64,000 nucleotides of DNA from contig NZ_AFXZ01000047.1 in NCBI RefSeq assembly GCF_000224335.1, positions 1 through 64,000 on the forward strand, in the 5' to 3' direction. The notes beneath the pieces were generated by a model. That model saw nothing but the letters and a program-made list of their open reading frames with translations. It was not told where the DNA came from and searched no databases. The translations under genes were made by a program, and so were the position numbers. The DNA comes from Bizionia argentinensis JUB59. GTDB taxonomy: Bacteria > Bacteroidota > Bacteroidia > Flavobacteriales > Flavobacteriaceae. Shown here in pieces: positions 21,168 through 32,341 of the stretch (its first letter is position 1; each line of letters starts with the position of its first letter).

Positions 21168-24100
21168 TTGAATACAACCAATCCTAATTTATTAAAAACC
21201 TTAAAAAATCAAGTACTTGTTGCTGGTGCCTTACTTTTTTCAGTGTTGGTTTGGTCGCAAACAGAGCCTGTTGAGCAAGATACAACAAAAACCGGTTTTA
21301 ATTTTGGCAATATGCAAATGCCAAATCCGTCTAGTATTGTATCTAAATATAAATACGACCCTATAACAGATCGCTATATTTATACGGAAACTATTGGCGA
21401 GTTTAATATTAATTATCCCATAATTTTAACGCCTAAAGAATATCAAGATTTAATTGTAAAGCAAGGTGTGCAATCTTATTACAAGCAAAAAATTGATGCT
21501 TTCGATGGAAAAAAGGAAGGTAGTGATGAAGGTCAGAAGAATTTATTACCGGAGTTTTATGTCAATTCAGGCTTCTTTGAAACTATTTTCGGAAGTGATA
21601 CTATTGAAGTCATTCCTCAAGGTTCCGTAGAAATGGATTTGGGTATCTTGTTTACTAAACAAGATAATCCTGCTTTCTCACCCAGAAACAGAAGTAGTTT
21701 TACATTCGATTTTGATCAGCGTATAAGTTTAAGCTTGCTAGGTAAAGTGGGAACACGACTACAAGTAACGGCTAATTATGATACACAATCTACTTTCGAT
21801 TTTCAAAATTTAATAAAATTAGAATACACACCAACTGAAGATGATATTATTCAGAAAATTGAAGTTGGTAACGTTAGTATGCCTTTAAATAGTTCTTTAA
21901 TTACTGGAGCTCAAAGTTTATTTGGTGTTAAAACACAGTTGCAGTTTGGTAAAACAACCATTACAGGTGTGTTTTCTGAACAGAAATCCGACAGGCGAAC
22001 GGTTATTGCTCAAGGTGGTGGAACGTTGGAAGAGTTTGATTTTTTTGCAAGAGATTATGATGAAAACCGTCACTTTTTCCTAGCACACTATTTTAGAGAT
22101 AATTATGATACGGCTTTGGCAAATTATCCGCATATCTTTTCCAATGTGCAAATTACACGCGTTGAAGTTTGGGTAACTAATAAAACTAACCGAACAGAAA
22201 ACGTTAGAAATATTGTGGCACTTCAGGATTTAGGAGAGTCAAACTCAAACCCATCGGCGAATAATATTTTGCTAAACCCTGTTCCTCCGGGATTTTTAAA
22301 TGCAGGCCCAAATGCTTATCCAGATAACAAGAATAACGATTTTAACCCGACAACTATTGGTTCGGGTTCAATTTTAAATAAAAGTATTAGAGATATTGCC
22401 ACCGCACAACAAGGTTTTGGAAGTTTATCTGGTGCCGTTAGTGAAGGTTCTGATTATGCAAAATTAGAAAATGCTCGTAAATTAACAGAAGGTCAGGAGT
22501 TTACCTTGAATACGCAATTAGGATATATTTCTTTAAATCAACGTTTAAATAACGATGAAGTTGTTGCGGTTGCATTTCAATATACGGTTGGTGGAAAAGT
22601 TTATCAAGTGGGAGAGTTCGCAAATGGAGGCGTGGACCCAACTGGCGTAGATACTTCTGGACCAATAACAACTGTTACCAACAACACCCTTGTTTTGAAA
22701 TTATTAAAGAGTCCGATTACAAATGTGCAACAGCCTATTTGGGACTTAATGATGAAGAATATTTATGACACAGGGGCCTACCAATTAAGTAGGGAAGATT
22801 TCAAATTGAATATTTTTTATAACGAAGCATCACCAGTTAACTTTATTACACCTGTTTCTGGCACACCTTTTCCGCAGTTTGAAGGAAATCCAATAAGCGA
22901 AACAACTTTACTACGGCTATTTAATTTTGATAGACTAAACTTTAATAATGACCCGCAAAAAAATGGTGATGGGTTTTTCGATTTTGTTCCTGGAATAACT
23001 GTCTTACCGCAAAATGGTAAAATTGTTTTTACCAAAGTCGAGCCGTTTGGTCAGTATTTATTTGAAACTTTATCATTAGCCAATTCTGAAGATTATACCA
23101 ATACAGCAACTTATAACGACAATCAGAAAAAATACGTTTATGATGTATTGTATAAGCAAACGAAGTCGGCGGCTTTAGAAGAGTCTGATAAGAATAAATT
23201 TAAAATAAAAGGGCGTTACAAATCCGAGGGTGGCGACGGTATTCCTATTGGTGCATTTAATGTACCACGTGGGTCTGTTACAGTTACAGCGGGTGGTAGA
23301 ACGTTAGTGGAAGGTGTAGATTACACCGTAAACTATCAAGCGGGAACGGTTCAGATTTTAGATGAATCTTTGAAGGCGTCTAATACACCAATTCAGGTTT
23401 CGACAGAAAATAATGCTGTTTTCGGACAGCAAACCAAGCGTTTTACTGGTGTAAATGTTGAACATAAATTTAATGAAAACTTTGTACTTGGAGGAACATG
23501 GTTGCACCTTAATGAACGGCCAATTACACAAAAAGCTAATTATAGTCAGGAACCTATTAATAACCATATTTTCGGATTTAATGGAAATTATTCCACCGAA
23601 GTACCGTTTTTAACACGTTTGGCTAATAAGCTTCCCAATATTGATACAGACGTTATGTCTAATTTATCGGTACGTGGTGAGTTTGCTTATTTAGCACCAG
23701 GGTCTCCAAAAGGAACTGACTTTGAAGGCGAAGCAACAACTTATGTGGACGACTTTGAAGGTTCTCAAAGTAATATTGACTTAAAATCTCCGCAATCTTG
23801 GTTTTTATCAAGTAGACCTCGTGGTATAAACGCTAATAATGACGATCAAAACGGCATAGAGCAAGGTTTCGATCGCGCCCTACTAAACTGGTACACTATT
23901 GATCCTATTTTTTACAGCAATAGAAGTCCAAGTGGAATTACCGATGATGATATTTCTAATTTATATACCAGTCGCGTATTTATAAATGAATTATTTCCAG
24001 GTCAAGATATTGCGCAAGGTCAAAGTACGGTTTTATACACTTTGGATTTAGCATATTATCCAGAAGAACGTGGTCCTTATAACTTTCAAACCTCTAATGT

Positions 24101-27100
24101 TGTTATTCCAGATAATCAACTAACCAATCCAGCAAATAGCTGGGGAGGTATAACAAGAGGTTTAACGTCTACCGATTTTGAACAGGCAAACGTGGAATAT
24201 ATTGAGTTTTGGTTACAAGACCCATTTCAAGAAAACCAGACGAATCCAGGTGGAAAGTTGGTATTTAATTTAGGTAATATTTCCGAGGATGTTGTTAAGG
24301 ATGGTCGTAAACTCTATGAAAATGGTCTGCCTGTCGATGGAAATGTTTTAGGTGTTTTACCACAATCTACCTCTTGGGGTGCTGCATATCCGCAAAATCA
24401 ATCACTTATTTATGCTTTTGATACCACTGGACAGGAGCGAGACAATCAAGATGTTGGTTATGATGGTTTAAGTGATTCCGACGAACGAATTGTTTTTCCA
24501 AATTATGGTATGTTAGACGATCCTTCAAACGATAACTACACTTATTTTTTAAATACGGATGGCGATATTTTTCAGCGTTACAAAAACTATAACGGTGTAG
24601 AAGGAAACTCGCCAGATACATTTTCAGATACAAATCGTGGTTCAACATCACAACCGGATGTGGAAGATGTAAACCGGGATAACACCATGAATACTATAGA
24701 TAGTTACTATGAGTATGAATTGGATATTACTCCAAGTGATTTAAATATCAACAACCCATACATTGTTGATATTAAAGAAAATCAAATAAGAACTTTACCA
24801 AACGGACAAACAGTTACACCAAAATGGTATCAGTTTAGAATTCCGGTTGACGATGTTGCAAAAACATCTATTGGTGGTATTTCCGATTTACGTTCGGTTC
24901 GTTTTGCAAGAATGTACTTAAAGCAATTTACAGAGCAAACCATCATGCGTTTTGGTACTTTAGATTTAGTACGAAGTGAATGGAGACGCTATTCAAAAAC
25001 ATTAGATGTGGATTTAGGTGATCCATCATTGGATAATACGGATTTTTCTGTAGGTGTAATCAGTACCTTAAAAAATGACGGCAGTTACCAGTCGCCACCA
25101 GGAGTAGATCCAGAAGAATTGTATAATAACAATACGGTTATCAGACAGAACGAGCAATCTTTATTGTTAGATGTTTGTGATTTAGAGTCTGAAGATGGTC
25201 GTGCAGTTTTTAAGAATATTAATGTGGATATGCGTCAATATAAACGTTTACGCATGTATATGCACGCCGAGGAAGGTTCGCAGCCTGGTTTAAATGACGA
25301 CGACTTATTTGGATATATTAGAATGGGTAACGATTTAACCCAAAACTATTACGAAATTATGGTGCCTCTTAAAGTATCGCAAGGACTGTCAAAAGAAGCG
25401 CTATGGCCAGAAGCAAACCAAGTAAATATACCATTAAAAGTATTACAAGAAATTAAATCTAAAGCTATTGCAGCTGGAAATATTAGTAGTAATAACCCAA
25501 CTTACTATGATGTTATAAGAGACCAATTAACAGAAAACCCCGTAAATCAATACGATCCATTGCCTGTTGGATTATCGGATTCCGATCAATTTCATCGAGT
25601 GGCTATTGTTGGTAATCCAAACTTTGGGGATATACGAACCTTAATGGTTGGTGTAAAAAACAGAGCGTCTGTTAGTAAATGTGCGGTACTTTGGATAAAC
25701 GAATTACGACTATCAGATATGGATAGTGAAGGTGGTTGGGCAGCTGTTTTAAGTATGGATTCTAATATTGCCGATTTTGCAAGTATAAGTGCAACTGGAA
25801 GAAAAAGTACTGCAGGATTTGGAAGTATCGAGCAAGGTCCAGAGGAGCGCAGCCGTGAAGATGTACAACAGTATGACGTGGTTACTAATGTAAATGTAGG
25901 GCAGTTGCTACCTGAAAAATGGGGTGTTCAAATTCCGTTTAATTACGGTGTAGGTGAAGAAAAAATTACGCCGCGATTTGATGAGTTTTATCGCGATATT
26001 GAATTGCAGACGCAGTTAGATAATAACGTAAACCAAGACTCTATATTAAATGTCAACGAAAATTATACCAAGCGTAAGAGTATTAATTTTATTGGAGTTC
26101 GAAAAATTAGAACAGGCGAATCTGCGCCGCGTTTCTATGATGTGGAAAACTTCACCCTTAATTATTCATATAATAAAGTAGAACATCGTGATTTTGAAAT
26201 AGAAAATGCTGTTGATAAAAATCTGCGAACAGGGGTCAATTATGCCTATAATTTTGCGCCATTAAATATAGAGCCATTCAAGAAAAATGATTCTTTGTTT
26301 ACAAGTAAGTATTGGAAACTATTAAAGGATTTTAATTTCAATCCGCTACCTGCAAGTTTTACTGTTAACTCTAATATAAATAGACAGTTTAATAAACAGA
26401 AATTTAGAGAAATTGATTTGGGAGGAGCCAATATTGGGCTTGAGGAATTATATAGACGAAATTATACATTTGACTTTGGTTACACGGTGAATTATAATTT
26501 AACCAAGGCATTATCCATGAATTTCACAGCATCCAATGTAAATATTGTTCGAAATTATTTTAAAAATAATATTAGGAATGGTGAACAAGATGCAAGTTTA
26601 GATGTTTGGGATGGATTCTTCGATTTTGGAGATCCAAACACCCAATATCAACAATTAGGTGTGAATTACGAAATTCCTATAAATAAAATACCAACTTTTG
26701 CCTTTCTGGATGCAACATATTCTTATAGTGGAGAATTTCAATGGCAAAAAGGATCTGATTTATTGGGAGATTTAGACGTAAACGGTATCACTTATGATTT
26801 AGGAAACGTCATCTCTAATGCCAATCAGCATAATTTGAATACCACCTTAAATATGAGTAAATTTTATAATCATATTGGGTTAAAAAAGAAATCGGTTAAA
26901 AGAAATACGGCTTCACGAAATGCTAAAAGAACGCCAACACCACCTGGAGCCGAAGATCTTCAAATTGCAGAGAAGCCAAAGGGAGCTGAAAAAATATCTA
27001 AAAATAGCGCAGGAACCAAACTTTTAAATACGGGAATTGATATAGTTACAGCCGTAAAACGAATTCAATTTAATTACGCAGAAACCAGCGGAACATATTT

Positions 27101-28376
27101 GCCAGGTTACTTGCAAACACCTGGATTTGTTGGAACTTTAAAGCCCACAACAGCTTTTACTTTTGGTAGCCAAAATGATGTTCGTGATATGGCGGCAAGA
27201 CGTGGTTGGTTAACCATGTATCCGGATTTTAATGATCAGTATCGTGTTAATAAAACACGTCAGTTTGATTATTCGGCAAATATAGAGCCCTTTAAAGATT
27301 TAAAGATTGATGTTGTAGGAAATAGAATGTATGCGGAAAACTTTACAGAAAACTACCGTGTAAACGATTTAGGTAGTCGCTATGAATATGAATCGCTTAC
27401 ACCAAATTCTTTTGGAAACTTTAATATTTCAACCATACTAATAAAAACGGCATTTAGTCAAAGTAATGAAATTCAGTCTCAAACATTTAATGAATTTAGA
27501 TCAAACCGTATAAAAGTTGCAAACCGATTAGCGCAAGGCTACTACGGTGGTAATTCATATCCTTTAGATGCGGAAGGTTATCCAGTTGGCTTTGGTAAAA
27601 ACAACCAAGCTGTGTTGTTGCCGTCATTTTTATCAGCCTATTCAGGGCAGAACGCTGAAAAGGTTTCTTTAGGCGCTTTCCGTGATATACCTATTCCAAA
27701 CTGGGATGTTAAATATACCGGTTTAATGAATGTAAAATGGTTTAAGAGTAAGTTTAAGCGTTTTTCCATTGTTCATGGGTATCGCTCTAATTATACTATT
27801 AATCAATTCCGCTCTAATTTAGATTATGACGTTGAAAACCCTTCAGCAGTAGATCAAAGTGGAAATTATAAAAATGAAAATCTATATAGTAATATTAACT
27901 TAAGTGAAATGTTTAGTCCACTTTTCCGGATTGATATGGAAATGAAAAGCTCCATTAAAATCCTATTAGAAATGAAAAAAGATCGTTTGTTATCCTTGAG
28001 TTTTGATAATAATTTAATGACCGAAATTCAGGGTAATGAATATATTATTGGAATGGGATATCGGATAAAAGATGTCCGTATTAAATCTAAATTAGCCGGT
28101 CCTAAAAAGCGTATAGTGAGTGATTTAAATATAAAGGCTGATATTTCGGTTCGTGATAATAAAACAATCATTCGCTACTTGGATTTAGAAAATAATCAAG
28201 TAACATCTGGTCAGACAATTTGGTCGCTAAAGTTTTCGACCGATTATTCCTTTAGTAAAAACTTAACCGGTATTTTCTATTTTGATTATGCCTTTTCAGA
28301 GTACGCTATTTCAACGGCATTTCCACAAACAACTATACGTTCTGGAATCACTCTCCGATATACTTTTGGTAATTAA
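21168..28376 (+). CDS. sprA: Type IX secretion translocon and gliding protein SprA
   Basis: SprA is the giant outer-membrane beta-barrel through which type IX substrates leave the cell; it is needed for gliding in Flavobacterium. The protein has 2402 residues. It begins at TTG 21168, 6 bp after ruvA, with a signal peptide ending SVLVWSQ. Family marks are the early YKYDPITDRYIYTETIGEF segment, the repeated SprA-N type block around residues 700-760 (GAFNVPRGSVTVTAGGRTLV), and long stretches of alternating polar and aromatic residues ending TIRSGITLRYTFGN. The length is typical (about 2300-2500). It would export the sorting-domain protein at 589-1278. gcvH follows with its own promoter. Confidence 0.96.
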   Translation: MNTTNPNLLKTLKNQVLVAGALLFSVLVWSQTEPVEQDTTKTGFNFGNMQMPNPSSIVSKYKYDPITDRYIYTETIGEFNINYPIILTPKEYQDLIVKQGVQSYYKQKIDAFDGKKEGSDEGQKNLLPEFYVNSGFFETIFGSDTIEVIPQGSVEMDLGILFTKQDNPAFSPRNRSSFTFDFDQRISLSLLGKVGTRLQVTANYDTQSTFDFQNLIKLEYTPTEDDIIQKIEVGNVSMPLNSSLITGAQSLFGVKTQLQFGKTTITGVFSEQKSDRRTVIAQGGGTLEEFDFFARDYDENRHFFLAHYFRDNYDTALANYPHIFSNVQITRVEVWVTNKTNRTENVRNIVALQDLGESNSNPSANNILLNPVPPGFLNAGPNAYPDNKNNDFNPTTIGSGSILNKSIRDIATAQQGFGSLSGAVSEGSDYAKLENARKLTEGQEFTLNTQLGYISLNQRLNNDEVVAVAFQYTVGGKVYQVGEFANGGVDPTGVDTSGPITTVTNNTLVLKLLKSPITNVQQPIWDLMMKNIYDTGAYQLSREDFKLNIFYNEASPVNFITPVSGTPFPQFEGNPISETTLLRLFNFDRLNFNNDPQKNGDGFFDFVPGITVLPQNGKIVFTKVEPFGQYLFETLSLANSEDYTNTATYNDNQKKYVYDVLYKQTKSAALEESDKNKFKIKGRYKSEGGDGIPIGAFNVPRGSVTVTAGGRTLVEGVDYTVNYQAGTVQILDESLKASNTPIQVSTENNAVFGQQTKRFTGVNVEHKFNENFVLGGTWLHLNERPITQKANYSQEPINNHIFGFNGNYSTEVPFLTRLANKLPNIDTDVMSNLSVRGEFAYLAPGSPKGTDFEGEATTYVDDFEGSQSNIDLKSPQSWFLSSRPRGINANNDDQNGIEQGFDRALLNWYTIDPIFYSNRSPSGITDDDISNLYTSRVFINELFPGQDIAQGQSTVLYTLDLAYYPEERGPYNFQTSNVVIPDNQLTNPANSWGGITRGLTSTDFEQANVEYIEFWLQDPFQENQTNPGGKLVFNLGNISEDVVKDGRKLYENGLPVDGNVLGVLPQSTSWGAAYPQNQSLIYAFDTTGQERDNQDVGYDGLSDSDERIVFPNYGMLDDPSNDNYTYFLNTDGDIFQRYKNYNGVEGNSPDTFSDTNRGSTSQPDVEDVNRDNTMNTIDSYYEYELDITPSDLNINNPYIVDIKENQIRTLPNGQTVTPKWYQFRIPVDDVAKTSIGGISDLRSVRFARMYLKQFTEQTIMRFGTLDLVRSEWRRYSKTLDVDLGDPSLDNTDFSVGVISTLKNDGSYQSPPGVDPEELYNNNTVIRQNEQSLLLDVCDLESEDGRAVFKNINVDMRQYKRLRMYMHAEEGSQPGLNDDDLFGYIRMGNDLTQNYYEIMVPLKVSQGLSKEALWPEANQVNIPLKVLQEIKSKAIAAGNISSNNPTYYDVIRDQLTENPVNQYDPLPVGLSDSDQFHRVAIVGNPNFGDIRTLMVGVKNRASVSKCAVLWINELRLSDMDSEGGWAAVLSMDSNIADFASISATGRKSTAGFGSIEQGPEERSREDVQQYDVVTNVNVGQLLPEKWGVQIPFNYGVGEEKITPRFDEFYRDIELQTQLDNNVNQDSILNVNENYTKRKSINFIGVRKIRTGESAPRFYDVENFTLNYSYNKVEHRDFEIENAVDKNLRTGVNYAYNFAPLNIEPFKKNDSLFTSKYWKLLKDFNFNPLPASFTVNSNINRQFNKQKFREIDLGGANIGLEELYRRNYTFDFGYTVNYNLTKALSMNFTASNVNIVRNYFKNNIRNGEQDASLDVWDGFFDFGDPNTQYQQLGVNYEIPINKIPTFAFLDATYSYSGEFQWQKGSDLLGDLDVNGITYDLGNVISNANQHNLNTTLNMSKFYNHIGLKKKSVKRNTASRNAKRTPTPPGAEDLQIAEKPKGAEKISKNSAGTKLLNTGIDIVTAVKRIQFNYAETSGTYLPGYLQTPGFVGTLKPTTAFTFGSQNDVRDMAARRGWLTMYPDFNDQYRVNKTRQFDYSANIEPFKDLKIDVVGNRMYAENFTENYRVNDLGSRYEYESLTPNSFGNFNISTILIKTAFSQSNEIQSQTFNEFRSNRIKVANRLAQGYYGGNSYPLDAEGYPVGFGKNNQAVLLPSFLSAYSGQNAEKVSLGAFRDIPIPNWDVKYTGLMNVKWFKSKFKRFSIVHGYRSNYTINQFRSNLDYDVENPSAVDQSGNYKNENLYSNINLSEMFSPLFRIDMEMKSSIKILLEMKKDRLLSLSFDNNLMTEIQGNEYIIGMGYRIKDVRIKSKLAGPKKRIVSDLNIKADISVRDNKTIIRYLDLENNQVTSGQTIWSLKFSTDYSFSKNLTGIFYFDYAFSEYAISTAFPQTTIRSGITLRYTFGN

Positions 28377-28433: not shown

Positions 28434-28814
28434 ATGAATATTCCAGCTGAATTAAAATATACAAAAGATCACGAATGGGTAAAACTAGAAGGTGATGTAG
28501 TAATTGTAGGTATTACTGATTTCGCTCAAAGTGAATTAGGTGATATCGTTTACGTAGAAGTTGAAACTGTAGATGAGACTTTAGATGCAGACGAAATTTT
28601 TGGATCTGTAGAAGCCGTTAAAACTGTATCTGACTTATTTTTACCAATTTCTGGTGAAATCATCGAGTTTAACGAAGCACTTGAAGATGCTCCAGAATTA
28701 GTAAACAGCGATCCTTATGGTGAGGGTTGGATGATTAAAATCAAATGTTCGGACGTATCAGATGTGGCTAAACTAATGTCTGCAGACGATTATAAAGAAT
28801 TAGTGGGTGCTTAA
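28434..28814 (+). CDS. gcvH: Glycine cleavage system H protein
   Basis: GcvH is the lipoyl carrier that shuttles the aminomethyl group between the P, T and L proteins of glycine cleavage. It has 126 residues, the normal length. The lipoylated lysine is Lys63 in [14 protein letters not shown], and the start is [13 protein letters not shown] as expected. The other gcv genes are not nearby. Its last codons overlap the start of the VanZ-like gene by 8 bp. Confidence 0.97.
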
Positions 28815-29184
28815 AAAACACACCTTATTAATTTCTATAGCTTATACGATATCGTTACTAGCGGTTAGTTTAATAAGGTTGGATTTTAGTGAGATTGAAA
28901 CTATAATACCATCATTTGCAGACAAAGTATTTCATTTTGGTGCATATGGGGTTTTAACTGGAGTTTGGTTTTATACCTTTAATTATAGGTATAATATGTC
29001 CAGAATTAAAGCTTTGTTAATTATTTCTACTGCGTGTATTGCGTTTGGTATAATTATTGAAGTCTTACAAAAAGAATTAACAAACACGCGTTATTTTGAT
29101 TGGTATGATATATTAGCCAATGTGGGAGGTGTACTTTTAGCCACTTACTTAGTGCTCTTTTTCAAAAAATCTGACGTTAAATAA
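28807..29184 (+). CDS. VanZ-like family membrane protein
   Basis: A 125-residue inner-membrane protein with four hydrophobic helices (about 8-22, 37-55, 68-86 and 100-119). It has the VanZ-like features: a conserved [12 protein letters not shown] motif at the end of the first loop and [20 protein letters not shown] at the last helix. VanZ relatives are linked to glycopeptide tolerance in enterococci, but the function of this short form is unknown. It starts with GTG inside the end of gcvH, so it is likely made by translational coupling. Confidence 0.8.
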
Positions 29185-29248
29185 TATTAATCGTTTGTTT
29201 CATAACCATTTTTTTGGTTATTTAGCAGGCAGTAATAAATCTATAACT

Positions 29249-29968
29249 ATGGAACCTAAAAAAAACCCGAAAGCAAACGTTGGCAGAAACAGTTCATTGT
29301 TCTTTGCTATTGGTTTAGCATTAATGTTGTTTTTAACAAATTATGCTATCAATTATAAAACCTATGATAAAGAATTGATTGATATCGGTACTTTGGATAT
29401 GGGTGACGAATTAGAAGAAGAAGTTCCAATTACTGAAACCATTGCTACACCGCCACCACCGCCACCGCCACCAGCAGCACCGGAAATAATTGAAATTGTT
29501 GAGGATGATGAAGAGATTGAAGAAACAGTAATCGAGTCAACTGAAACAAGTCAGGAAGAAGAGATTATTGAAATTGAAGAGGTTCAAGTAGAAGAGATAG
29601 CAGAATTAGAGGAGGTTCCTTTTGCAGTTATCGAAAACGTTCCAGTTTTTCCAGGTTGTGAAAAAGGGAACAACGAAGATAAAAAGAACTGTATGAATGA
29701 GAAATTGAGAGATTTCATTGGTAAAAAGTTCAATACAGATTTAGCTCAGGAATTAGGTCTATCAGGTATCCAGCAAATCCGTGTATTCTTTAAAATTGAT
29801 AAAAATGGGGATATTGTAGATGTTCAAGCACGAGCTCCGCACCCAAGTTTAGAGAAAGAAGCTAGGCGTGTTATTGGTTTATTGCCTAAAATGCAGCCTG
29901 GAAAACAAAGAGGAAAAGCCGTAAGAGTTCCTTACTTTTTACCTATAAAGTTCCAAGTCCAAGACTAA
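29249..29968 (+). CDS. tonB: TonB energy transducer
   Basis: TonB passes proton-motive force from the inner membrane (ExbB/ExbD) to outer-membrane transporters. From the ATG at 29249 it has 239 residues: a short cytoplasmic start (MEPKKNPKAN), one membrane anchor (16-34), a run of eight prolines (67-74), a very acidic linker rich in Glu and Ile (78-130), and the C-terminal TonB domain beginning VIENVPVFPGCE. That domain includes EKEARRVIGLLPKMQPGKQ and ends FLPIKFQVQD. An in-frame start at 29195 would add 18 residues before the anchor and overlaps a hairpin, so I prefer 29249. No exbB or exbD is in the window. Confidence 0.92.
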   Translation: MEPKKNPKANVGRNSSLFFAIGLALMLFLTNYAINYKTYDKELIDIGTLDMGDELEEEVPITETIATPPPPPPPPAAPEIIEIVEDDEEIEETVIESTETSQEEEIIEIEEVQVEEIAELEEVPFAVIENVPVFPGCEKGNNEDKKNCMNEKLRDFIGKKFNTDLAQELGLSGIQQIRVFFKIDKNGDIVDVQARAPHPSLEKEARRVIGLLPKMQPGKQRGKAVRVPYFLPIKFQVQD

Positions 29969-29997
29969 ATAAAAAATACGCTTTTATATAAAATTAG

Positions 29998-30030
29998 AAT
30001 CCCGATACGTTTTAGTATCGGGATTTTTTA
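29998..30030 (+). terminator. Terminator after tonB
   Basis: A perfect 11-bp stem, AATCCCGATAC with GTATCGGGATT around a 6-nt loop, followed by a T-run. The remaining ~200 bp before remB shows no clear feature except a weak -7-like TATCTTTC at 30203-30210. Confidence 0.92.
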
Positions 30031-30232
30031 TTTTAGTCATTTATTGTCTTATAAATGTTGGTGTTTAGGTCTTATAAAACAGGAAGACATTCAGTGTATT
30101 TCCTTTTTTAAACAGGCAACGTTGGCGTATTTAAAAAAGTAAATCAGTGCCGTCAAGCTGGTTTTGTTAAATGATTTTTTATGCGTGTTATTAAAAAAAT
30201 AGTATCTTTCAAATGCCTAAAATTCTTTATAA

Positions 30233-32341
30233 ATGAATAAAAAGAACCTCCTTACCTTTTTGCTTCTTTTAGTTCAAATTGTTTTGTTCGCGCAAGACAA
30301 CAAATATTATGAGAAACCACCTGTGTTTCCGGAATGTGAATTGGTTGAGCTTTCGGGCTTACAAGTTTGTTTTGATAATCGTGTTTTTGATATAGTTTTT
30401 AATTCCTTTAAGATTCCTGATGTCGTTTCGATAGATAATTACAAAGGTGAAGTGGTTATTTTATTCGAAGTGGATAAAGAAGGTGTCTTTCGTGTTATTT
30501 ATGTTGATGCGTTGTATTCAGAATTAAAAGATGAAGCACGACGTGTTTTTGAAGTCTTTCCAAAAATCAAACCCGCTACTTATAATGGGAATCCAACTTT
30601 TAAGCAATATTCATTTGCCTTAAAAATTCCTTTAATTAAACAAACGGATCCAACAACTAAAGATTTAGCAATTAATCGAGAGCTAGCAGAATTAGAGCGC
30701 GGAGCCCGGCAAGAGTACGATAGTGTAAATACGAAACTAAAACCGTTTTCTAATAAAGAATATACCAGTCAGTTAAATATTCCTTTTACGCATGAGTTTT
30801 ATTCCCGATTTGGTAAAAATATGAACCTTGTTGGAACTAATAGTCATACTAGCTCTAAACCGTTTTTATATGAAGATGTTTCATCATATTATAACTTTGA
30901 AGCTGAAAAGGAAGCGCTAGCTAAAACAACGTCAACATTTACTGGTAGAAAACTATGGAATGAACGTTTTGTTCGGGTAGAAGGTGAAGATTATTGGTTT
31001 ACTATAGATCCCATTTTCGATTTACAAATTGGAAAGGATTTGGATGCGGATTTTAGTTATACATTCAACAACACACGTGGTGTTAATATCCAGGGAGGAT
31101 TGGGTAAGAAATTTAGTTTTTACGCGTCGGTTTTTGAAAGTCAAGGACGTTTTGCGGAATATTATAATCAATATGCCGAATCTATAAAAGCAAAGGATGA
31201 AGTTGCTGTTGTGCCTGGACGTGGTATAGCAAAACGTTTTAAAGACGATGCATACGATTATCCTGCTGCTGAAGCGTATTTGTCGTTTACGCCAGTTAAT
31301 TACTTTAATGTACAGTTTGGACAAGGAAAAAACTTTATTGGAGATGGACATCGGTCGCTATTTACGAGTGATGTAGCAAGTCCGAATCCCTTTTTAAAGT
31401 TAAATACAACATTTTGGAAAATTAAATATACCAACACATGGATGTGGCTTAAAGATTCAAGACGGGATGTTATTGATCCTGAAGGCGCGTATTTAACAAA
31501 ATACATGGCAACGCATTACTTAAGTTGGAATGCTACGAAACGGTTAAATATTGGTTTTTTCGAATCTGTAATTTGGGCAAAATCAGATAATCGCGGTTTC
31601 GATGTTAGTTATTTAAACCCTATTATTTTTTATCGTGCTATCGAATTTGAAACGGGACAGAAATCTGGAAATGCGGTTATGGGAATGTCCGCTAAATATA
31701 AATTGAGTGACGAAATAAATGTTTACGGACAATTTATTTTAGACGAATTCTCATTATCGGATATCACGGGAGGCGAAAAAAGCTGGAAAAACAAATATGG
31801 TTATCAATTAGGTGCTAAATATTACGATGCTTTTAAGATTAAAAACTTGATGATTCAGGCAGAATATAACCGTGTACGTCCATATACTTATTCTCATAAT
31901 ACGGTTGTACTTAATTATGGGCACAACAATCAGAGCATGGCACATTTATGGGGAGCCAATTTTAGTGAGTTTATTCTTATAGGTCGCTACCATTATGAAC
32001 GGTGGTTTGGGAATGCTAAATTAGTAATGGGCAAGCGTGGATTAGATTTTAATGATGGTACTGATAACTTTAGTTATGGTGGAGATATTTATCGTAGTTA
32101 TGGGGAACGACCTTATGATAAAGGTGTTACAGTTGGGCAAGGAAATCAAGCCACGACATTTTTCGCCAATCTACAAGCGGGCTACTTAATTAATCCGGCA
32201 ACTAATTTGAAAATATTTGGCGATATTACTTTCCGAGATTTTAATCCAGATACAGTAAATGCGACTACGTTTAAATCAAATACGGTGTGGTTTAATTTAG
32301 GAATTCGTACTGATTTATTTAATTGGTATTTTGATTTGTAA
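30233..32341 (+). CDS. remB: Gliding motility protein RemB-like; TonB-C-like domain plus Wzi-type barrel
   Basis: A 702-residue outer-membrane protein. The signal peptide ends LFAQDNK (about residue 21). Residues ~28-140 read like a TonB C-terminal domain: PPVFPECE, VVILFEVDKEGVFRVIYVDA and DEARRVFEVFPKIKPATYNG. From about 180 to the end there is a beta-barrel of the capsule-assembly Wzi kind, with many alternating aromatic strands (for example YFNVQFGQGKNFIGDGHRSL) and a terminal aromatic residue pair FDL. The combination and length match RemB of flavobacteria, an outer-membrane protein that supports gliding. The assignment is from recall, not alignment. It sits between tonB and the heme O synthase gene. 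Confidence 0.68.
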   Translation: MNKKNLLTFLLLLVQIVLFAQDNKYYEKPPVFPECELVELSGLQVCFDNRVFDIVFNSFKIPDVVSIDNYKGEVVILFEVDKEGVFRVIYVDALYSELKDEARRVFEVFPKIKPATYNGNPTFKQYSFALKIPLIKQTDPTTKDLAINRELAELERGARQEYDSVNTKLKPFSNKEYTSQLNIPFTHEFYSRFGKNMNLVGTNSHTSSKPFLYEDVSSYYNFEAEKEALAKTTSTFTGRKLWNERFVRVEGEDYWFTIDPIFDLQIGKDLDADFSYTFNNTRGVNIQGGLGKKFSFYASVFESQGRFAEYYNQYAESIKAKDEVAVVPGRGIAKRFKDDAYDYPAAEAYLSFTPVNYFNVQFGQGKNFIGDGHRSLFTSDVASPNPFLKLNTTFWKIKYTNTWMWLKDSRRDVIDPEGAYLTKYMATHYLSWNATKRLNIGFFESVIWAKSDNRGFDVSYLNPIIFYRAIEFETGQKSGNAVMGMSAKYKLSDEINVYGQFILDEFSLSDITGGEKSWKNKYGYQLGAKYYDAFKIKNLMIQAEYNRVRPYTYSHNTVVLNYGHNNQSMAHLWGANFSEFILIGRYHYERWFGNAKLVMGKRGLDFNDGTDNFSYGGDIYRSYGERPYDKGVTVGQGNQATTFFANLQAGYLINPATNLKIFGDITFRDFNPDTVNATTFKSNTVWFNLGIRTDLFNWYFDL

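Follow-up and report, generated by a model that had tools for sequence, protein, structure and literature searches.

A TonB C-terminal-type domain on RemB, a putative Wzi-like outer-membrane barrel of Flavobacteriaceae

Introduction

How does a protein expected in the outer membrane come to carry a domain of the kind that ends TonB, and what would such a domain do there? The question is raised by remB of Bizionia argentinensis JUB59, which directly follows a tonB gene in the stretch of 64,000 nucleotides analysed here (contig NZ_AFXZ01000047.1, positions 1 to 64,000; henceforth, the window). A first-pass annotation had proposed that the two neighbours share a domain, on an inner-membrane anchor in TonB and on an outer-membrane barrel in RemB, that RemB captured this domain from tonB, and that it may provide a periplasmic link to energy transfer during gliding.

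Here, we examine these proposals by comparing sequences, predicted structures and gene order. The explanation that we prefer, and to which we give about an even chance of holding as a whole, combines a TonB-type domain, a linker and a Wzi-like barrel with a single early gain of the domain, a donor other than the neighbouring gene and a function as a periplasmic strand-binding adaptor. Within the open-licence literature, we found no description of a TonB domain in RemB, nor of a Wzi fold, and a TonB-type domain on a known kind of barrel is a combination that we did not find described there.

The remB locus

The gene row of the window, all of it on the forward strand, reads sprA, gcvH, vanZ-like gene, tonB, remB. 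The T9SS outer-membrane translocon gene sprA (21168..28376) matches NCBIfam TIGR04189 with 2772 bits; gcvH (28434..28814), named from sequence reading alone, is syntenic among Flavobacteriaceae loci; the vanZ-like gene (28807..29184) matches Pfam PF04892 with 31.8 bits; and tonB1 (29249..29968; 239 aa) matches Pfam TonB_C (PF03544) with 34.6 bits. The start of tonB1 was reset to the ATG at codon 19 of a TTG open reading frame (29195-29968), which is the probable start; the resulting 239 aa match the length of relatives (238-254 aa where complete). The C-terminal domain of TonB1 (29624..29965) is placed by Pfam, BLASTP and hhalign. Three genes occupy the interval from sprA to remB, in agreement with the locus tags of F. 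johnsoniae, for which a table in PMC4910214 lists sprA as Fjoh_1653 and remB as Fjoh_1657. By this shared locus with Fjoh_1657 the window gene is remB, a name known here by position.

A terminator-like hairpin (29996..30027, forward strand) lies 3' of tonB1, and the stretch around it (29972-30050) matches the one that follows tonB1 in relatives. Ahead of remB, a conserved block (30174..30212, forward strand) matches the corresponding stretch of congeners. Between these two conserved matches is a stretch (30051..30173, no strand assigned) at the position occupied by tonB2 in four of five congeners; it holds nothing recognisable, and tonB2 is absent between tonB1 and remB when window positions 29969-30232 are set against congeners. 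By this comparison, the window is judged to have lost tonB2. The gene, common in relatives, is missing with the terminator and the remB-proximal block both retained. The sequence TTATTAA-AAAAATAGTATCTTTCA, 22-45 bases 5' of remB, is almost invariant across seven relatives. A scan for sigma-70-type promoters gave no site in 30174-30212, and this block would probably be remB's own promoter, of a type other than the sigma-70 one scanned for.

The gene remB (30233..32341; 702 aa) begins, again on the forward strand, with a putative signal peptide of about residues 1-21 (30233..30295), assigned by eye from a hydrophobic N-terminus that ends in AQ and resembles a cleavable signal peptide, with a modelled helix at residues 3-18. 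It is followed by the TonB C-terminal-type domain (residues ~26-135; 30308..30637), a fast-evolving linker (residues 136-178; 30638..30766) with a helix predicted at residues 149-168 with low confidence, and a helical part plus outer-membrane beta-barrel of the Wzi/AlgE type (residues 179-702; 30767..32338).

The domain shared by TonB and RemB

BLASTP, hhalign, an HMM built from TonBs only and fold comparison all agree that TonB and RemB share a domain, as the first-pass annotation had noticed, and the stretches that it quoted from the two proteins are both located in the sequence. BLASTP aligns TonB 150-252 with RemB 30-131 over 104 columns (42.0 bits, E 1e-8, 27% identity), and the Smith-Waterman score of TonB against the RemB domain is 109, the maximum among 2000 shuffles of the RemB domain being 60. 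The HMM comparison of both domains, named at the outset as a way to check the idea, gives a significant match over 106 columns (hhalign, 99.0%, E 8.3e-18). The domain lies in the interval first proposed for it, 30314-30650, with an extent that proved slightly wider on the 5' side (about 30308-30637).

Of 129 barrel frames, the TonB-only HMM, with no RemB inside, recognises the domain in 113 (window copy, i-E 8e-17); the 16 that it misses are precisely those of non-Flavobacteriaceae. Its members came from a search seeded with both window domains, and Pfam therefore serves as the independent check: at E <= 1, PF03544 is found in 14 of the 20 RemBs aligned, with 5.6e-5 as the best value; the window copy belongs to the 20 but not to the 14. 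By itself, the window RemB has no Pfam or NCBIfam match at E <= 10, and hence falls below the Pfam gathering score.

Modelled alone (pLDDT 91.7), the RemB domain has the order alpha-beta-beta-alpha-beta. The structure closest to this model is 6i97_D, TonB bound to FoxA (Z 8.2, 2.4 A, 87 residues), followed by TolA (Z 7.8) and H. pylori TonB (Z 7.5); the top 22 structural neighbours are all domains of TonB, TolA or FusB, ahead of any other protein (Z 4.4 at best). Foldseek E-values are modest (best 1.4e-3). On this model, we assign the TonB C-terminal fold to the RemB domain. Fold comparison was needed because sequence-only searches of solved structures are weak here: the RemB domain profile reached no TonB chain at E <= 10, its matches being taken as chance, and the TonB1 profile itself reached TonB/HasB chains at E 0.33-0.51 only, ranked under likely chance matches.

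Mean pairwise identity in 20 RemBs is 0.51 for the domain, 0.64 for the barrel and 0.26 for the linker; that is, the domain changes faster than the barrel and far slower than the linker. Residues invariant in the 20 include P30, C35, C46, G72 and G84. The beta-3 strand is kept, Q103 and Y104 being invariant across the 35 sequences of the domain alignment, and the neighbouring loop, PGKQRGxPV as conserved in TonBs, reads PATYNGNPT in RemB.

A Wzi-like barrel

The full-length model of RemB is of moderate to poor quality (mean pLDDT 62) and uninformative on how domain and barrel are arranged, yet it is clearly a barrel. AlgE and OprD-type porins fill the first Foldseek rows, and Wzi is absent among the best 50; after realignment with VIA-align, Wzi (2ynk) ranks first (Z 21.1, 3.9 A, 348 residues), with AlgE next at 17.9. 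The alignment with Wzi starts at residue 180, so it includes the helical part ahead of the barrel. Together, the full model, the Foldseek rows and the Wzi realignment uphold the earlier view of RemB as an outer-membrane barrel, and the C-terminal part is predicted to have the Wzi fold. Profile searches are silent on it: the RemB profile found no barrel among solved-structure sequences, no Pfam or NCBIfam model covers the barrel in the proteins scanned, and Pfam Wzi matches neither the window RemB (E <= 10), nor the 20 aligned RemBs (E <= 1), nor eight homologues from outside the family (E <= 10). Passages of PMC9601211 describe Wzi as anchoring the capsule, with a helical bundle on its periplasmic side.

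Distribution of the barrel and gain of the domain

Barrel homologues are present in 137 of 149 genomes drawn from the class (E <= 1e-8), and a search with the barrel alone matches 121 of 199 Flavobacteriaceae genomes (E <= 1e-20). The domain is found in 155 of the 156 fetched Flavobacteriaceae barrel frames (113/113 and 42/43). Loci of several genomes were fetched repeatedly, and distinct proteins were therefore counted as well: 129 of 130 distinct Flavobacteriaceae RemBs over 480 aa carry the domain. Outside the family, all 59 barrel frames (16 and 43) lack it, two of them losing their start to the end of the fetched DNA. Most Flavobacteriaceae loci were found with a full-length RemB query, which favours domain-bearing copies, the barrel alone having been the query only in the class draw (149 genomes) and the family search (199 genomes). 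The barrel-only search agrees with the counts: its listed whole-barrel frames are 686-772 aa, except for one of 548 aa (G309).

The sole domain-less RemB found in the family, L315 (G309:C12:85500-92300), has no sprA or tonB in its fetched DNA. A tree of 63 barrel sequences, of which 28 have the domain and 35 lack it, made by a quick method and with one short row dropped, requires just one change and shows L315 as sister to all domain-bearing RemBs (SH-aLRT 99 and 94). The domain would most simply have been gained once, early in Flavobacteriaceae, on an older family of domain-less barrels; such a gain is far likelier than many losses because domain-less homologues span many other families of the class. 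That RemB gained a TonB-type domain, as the idea of capture implies, is thus borne out by the counts and the barrel tree, in the form of a single gain. Tandem pairs of barrel genes occur outside Flavobacteriaceae (L240-L243, L247, L258).

The gene context of the domain-less barrels was taken from 16 loci outside Flavobacteriaceae (L039-L054), two of which (L051, L054) were left out of the scan of preceding genes. The gene directly 5' of the barrel codes for a glycosyltransferase or a CapD-like protein in 11 of the 14 loci scanned, namely glycosyltransferases of group 1 (three) and family 4 (four) and four Polysacc_synt_2 matches, which we take to be CapD-like. In the other three, this gene codes for a hexapeptide transferase (two loci) or, on the opposite strand, for an RNA methyltransferase (one locus). 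No sprA, gcvH or tonB was found in the 16 loci within the fetched DNA (up to ~4.5 kb upstream). Early-branching Flavobacteriaceae loci have a gene of ~190 aa ahead of remB, and the one copy scanned (L316) is a hexapeptide transferase. It seems that a polysaccharide-associated barrel moved beside sprA in Flavobacteriaceae and gained its domain, in either order. Genes for DeoC/LacD-type aldolases lie between the sprA/tonB genes and remB in three loci (L316, L317, L083), the aldolase region of L083 also holding two aldehyde dehydrogenase frames. A ctaB homologue is found 3' of the domain-less barrel gene in L044, L046, L048 and L053, and likewise 3' of the window remB.

The donor of the domain

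The simplest source would be the gene next door: a copy of the domain that ends the adjacent, sprA-linked TonB, or the tandem TonB2, would have been fused to remB in place. The genes adjoin, two tandem tonBs precede remB in 27 of 32 Flavobacteriaceae loci (in one of these, L068, the second frame has just 136 aa) and one does in four, and tonB1 is the best match of the domain in its own genome, narrowly (33.2 bits; second TonB, 32.1). In the remaining locus (L083), sprA and remB are ~6.5 kb apart, with sprA upstream and other genes in the interval. Across 80 named loci, assigned to the family by record title (two titles reading just 'Bacteroidia bacterium' and two 'Flavobacteriales bacterium'), the fetched DNA has two tonBs in 68, one in ten and none in two. 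Against this proximity stand loci in which remB is apart from tonB (L317, L319 and L322, with none in the fetched DNA) and the domain sequences themselves. The majority consensus of tonB1 and tonB2 reads 'CM...KFN-T' with a two-residue insertion, which is also present in a group of longer TonB_C proteins (some of them BlaR1/M56), whereas RemB has a 'CF...NFKVP' form and no insertion; 'CF', an 'NFxxP'-like stretch and the lack of the insertion recur in other TonBs, outside TonBs and short proteins. The lowest profile scores for RemB come from tonB1 (49.6 bits) and tonB2 (49.4 bits), against 60.8 for outside TonBs, 61.9 for longer insertion-bearing proteins and 77.9 for short proteins, in a comparison that favours generic profiles; rows of L127 and L130 were left out of the motif and profile comparison.

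Phylogeny, which the first-pass annotation had named as the check on this point, gives a divided answer. RemB domains do form one clade in the three bootstrap trees (100/99, 100/98 and 100/100), but this clade falls inside tonB2 in one tree and outside it in two; the branch that leads to the RemB clade is very long (1.4-2.2 changes per site), and its position shifts with sampling. A quick tree (L057-L059 rows left out) and the tree without short proteins put RemB near or inside tonB2, the latter tree placing it inside; this tree was built after removal of 21 loci, of every short ('solo') row and of 12 rows with long branches. A first tree with short proteins, made without 10 rows and without any row of 29 loci, joins RemB to L122 and six short domains (82/74). 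In the best-sampled tree, to which early-branching RemBs were added and from which a further set was left out, RemB joins five short TonB_C proteins and L085 (86/94), and tonB1, tonB2 and some longer TonB_C proteins form a clade (99/99) that does not contain it. These five short proteins begin, by eye, with a signal-peptide-like stretch. No placement tried is rejected by an AU test (p 0.48, 0.34, 0.23), and the test on the best-sampled tree says little on RemB, since its constraint kept intact a class that one short TonB_C row splits in the free tree.

In these analyses 'solo' denotes TonB_C frames under 180 aa, and 'M56' is a label for TonB_C proteins over 300 aa: among seven so labelled and scanned, Pfam M56 is present in L118, L108, L091 and L095, MORN_2 in L148, and neither in L085 and L122. 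One to three TonB_C domains are carried by each of the proteins at L118, L126, L095 and L091, with a BlaR1/M56 peptidase domain in L118, L095 and L091, the last of which belongs to the window's own genome.

With the missing insertion and the grouping with short TonB_C proteins in the best-sampled tree, the proposed capture from the adjacent tonB does not fare well: we regard a fusion of the present neighbour's domain as quite unlikely. The motifs, the missing insertion and the best-sampled tree point to a TonB_C gene with 'CF/NFxxP' motifs as the probable donor, which may have encoded a short, exported TonB_C protein standing alone. Another possible donor is an older tonB of that other class, linked to sprA, because several remB-less Flavobacteriaceae (such as L266 and L267) have this form beside sprA. 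A strict coupling of remB to the tonB1/tonB2 class finds no support, since this class also stands next to sprA in the remB-less genomes G021 and G027 (91 and 88% complete).

Possible functions of the domain

We propose that the N-terminal domain of RemB, which would lie in the periplasm, acts as a strand-binding adaptor on the Wzi-like barrel. Its C-terminal beta strand would pair with an extended peptide of a partner, in the manner of TonB and the TonB box, and this pairing would tether the barrel to another envelope complex; candidate partners are a TonB-dependent receptor, a T9SS or gliding component and polysaccharide export proteins. Passages of PMC12204202 describe the TonB domain as binding its target through strand addition. 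The TonB_C module looks like a general binder that was reused. A loop conserved in TonBs is changed in RemB, and therefore the partner, and even the binding mode, may differ. RemB would not be an energy transducer itself, since nothing would anchor it to the ExbB/ExbD motor: as an outer-membrane protein it presumably lacks an inner-membrane anchor, and the TonB-like proline-rich spacer that can be read in TonB1 is absent from RemB. A RemB that is itself motor-driven is unlikely.

A link between the domain and gliding energy, as raised by the first-pass annotation, is possible. In its explicit form, the domain would pair with the TonB C-terminal domain or join the Ton/GldLM motor chain, and the barrel would be pulled or gated by the proton motive force during gliding. 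The TonB-type fold, the adjoining tonB and sprA genes and the listing of RemB among motility genes in a table of PMC4910214 speak for such coupling, but the spacer is missing and the anchor not expected, the domain is retained where tonB is not adjacent, the TonB-conserved loop is altered, and gliding genes persist where remB does not. The barrel-only search gave no match in 16 of 49 Flavobacteriaceae genomes, and SprA and GldJ are kept above the cut-off in 15 of these 16 (the sixteenth, G008, is 80% complete); we consider energy coupling improbable. The same 15 genomes led us to reject the general rule that RemB belongs to the T9SS core. A passive module, which would steady the barrel as a periplasmic plug, through a chaperone-like role or through contact with peptidoglycan and would bind no partner strand, would also suit the changed loop, and TonB_C domains occur on BlaR1/M56 proteins (up to three), on a MORN protein and as short stand-alone proteins, so that the module is mobile and Ton function is not implied; retention in 129 of 130 RemBs, with the invariant beta-3 residues Q103 and Y104, suggests instead a specific contact, and we hold a passive role to be unlikely. 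A bolder version of the adaptor, in which RemB is the outer-membrane-side counterpart of TonB and its domain clasps T9SS/gliding or Ton peptides, linking surface polysaccharide to the moving or energised envelope, is a long shot.

The preferred reading of RemB, as a Wzi-like polysaccharide barrel with a once-gained TonB-type periplasmic domain, makes its role testable. It would also make TonB_C a mobile binding module able to sit on an outer-membrane protein, and the default reading of TonB_C matches as energy transducers is unwarranted.

Comparison with known systems

Fold and alpha-beta-beta-alpha-beta order are common to the RemB domain, as modelled, and the TonB C-terminal domain (PF03544; P. 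aeruginosa TonB, 6i97; E. coli TonB, 1xx3), and a Cys pair is common to the RemB domain and the TonBs of these bacteria. The two differ in placement, the RemB domain being N-terminal on a barrel and that of TonB C-terminal on an anchored spacer; the GKQRG loop of TonB is lost in RemB, and the window RemB escapes Pfam. BlaR1/M56 proteins with TonB_C carry the same module in the same bacteria, but they are peptidases with the domain at the C-terminus. M56/BlaR1 proteins reside in the inner membrane.

RemB of F. johnsoniae (Fjoh_1657) is encoded in the same place as the window remB, separated from sprA by three locus tags, and is listed in a table of PMC4910214 as adhesin-like and under T9SS secretion. 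Compared with that listing, the window RemB reads as an integral barrel, and it has no T9SS sorting-domain match in NCBIfam. Models for such sorting domains are presumably included in that library.

The capsule lectin Wzi of E. coli (2ynk) aligns with RemB over the barrel and the preceding helical part, at 13% identity. Unlike Wzi, RemB has an additional TonB-type domain, and any carbohydrate binding by RemB is putative; RemB homologues outside the family mostly sit behind polysaccharide genes, in keeping with Wzi.
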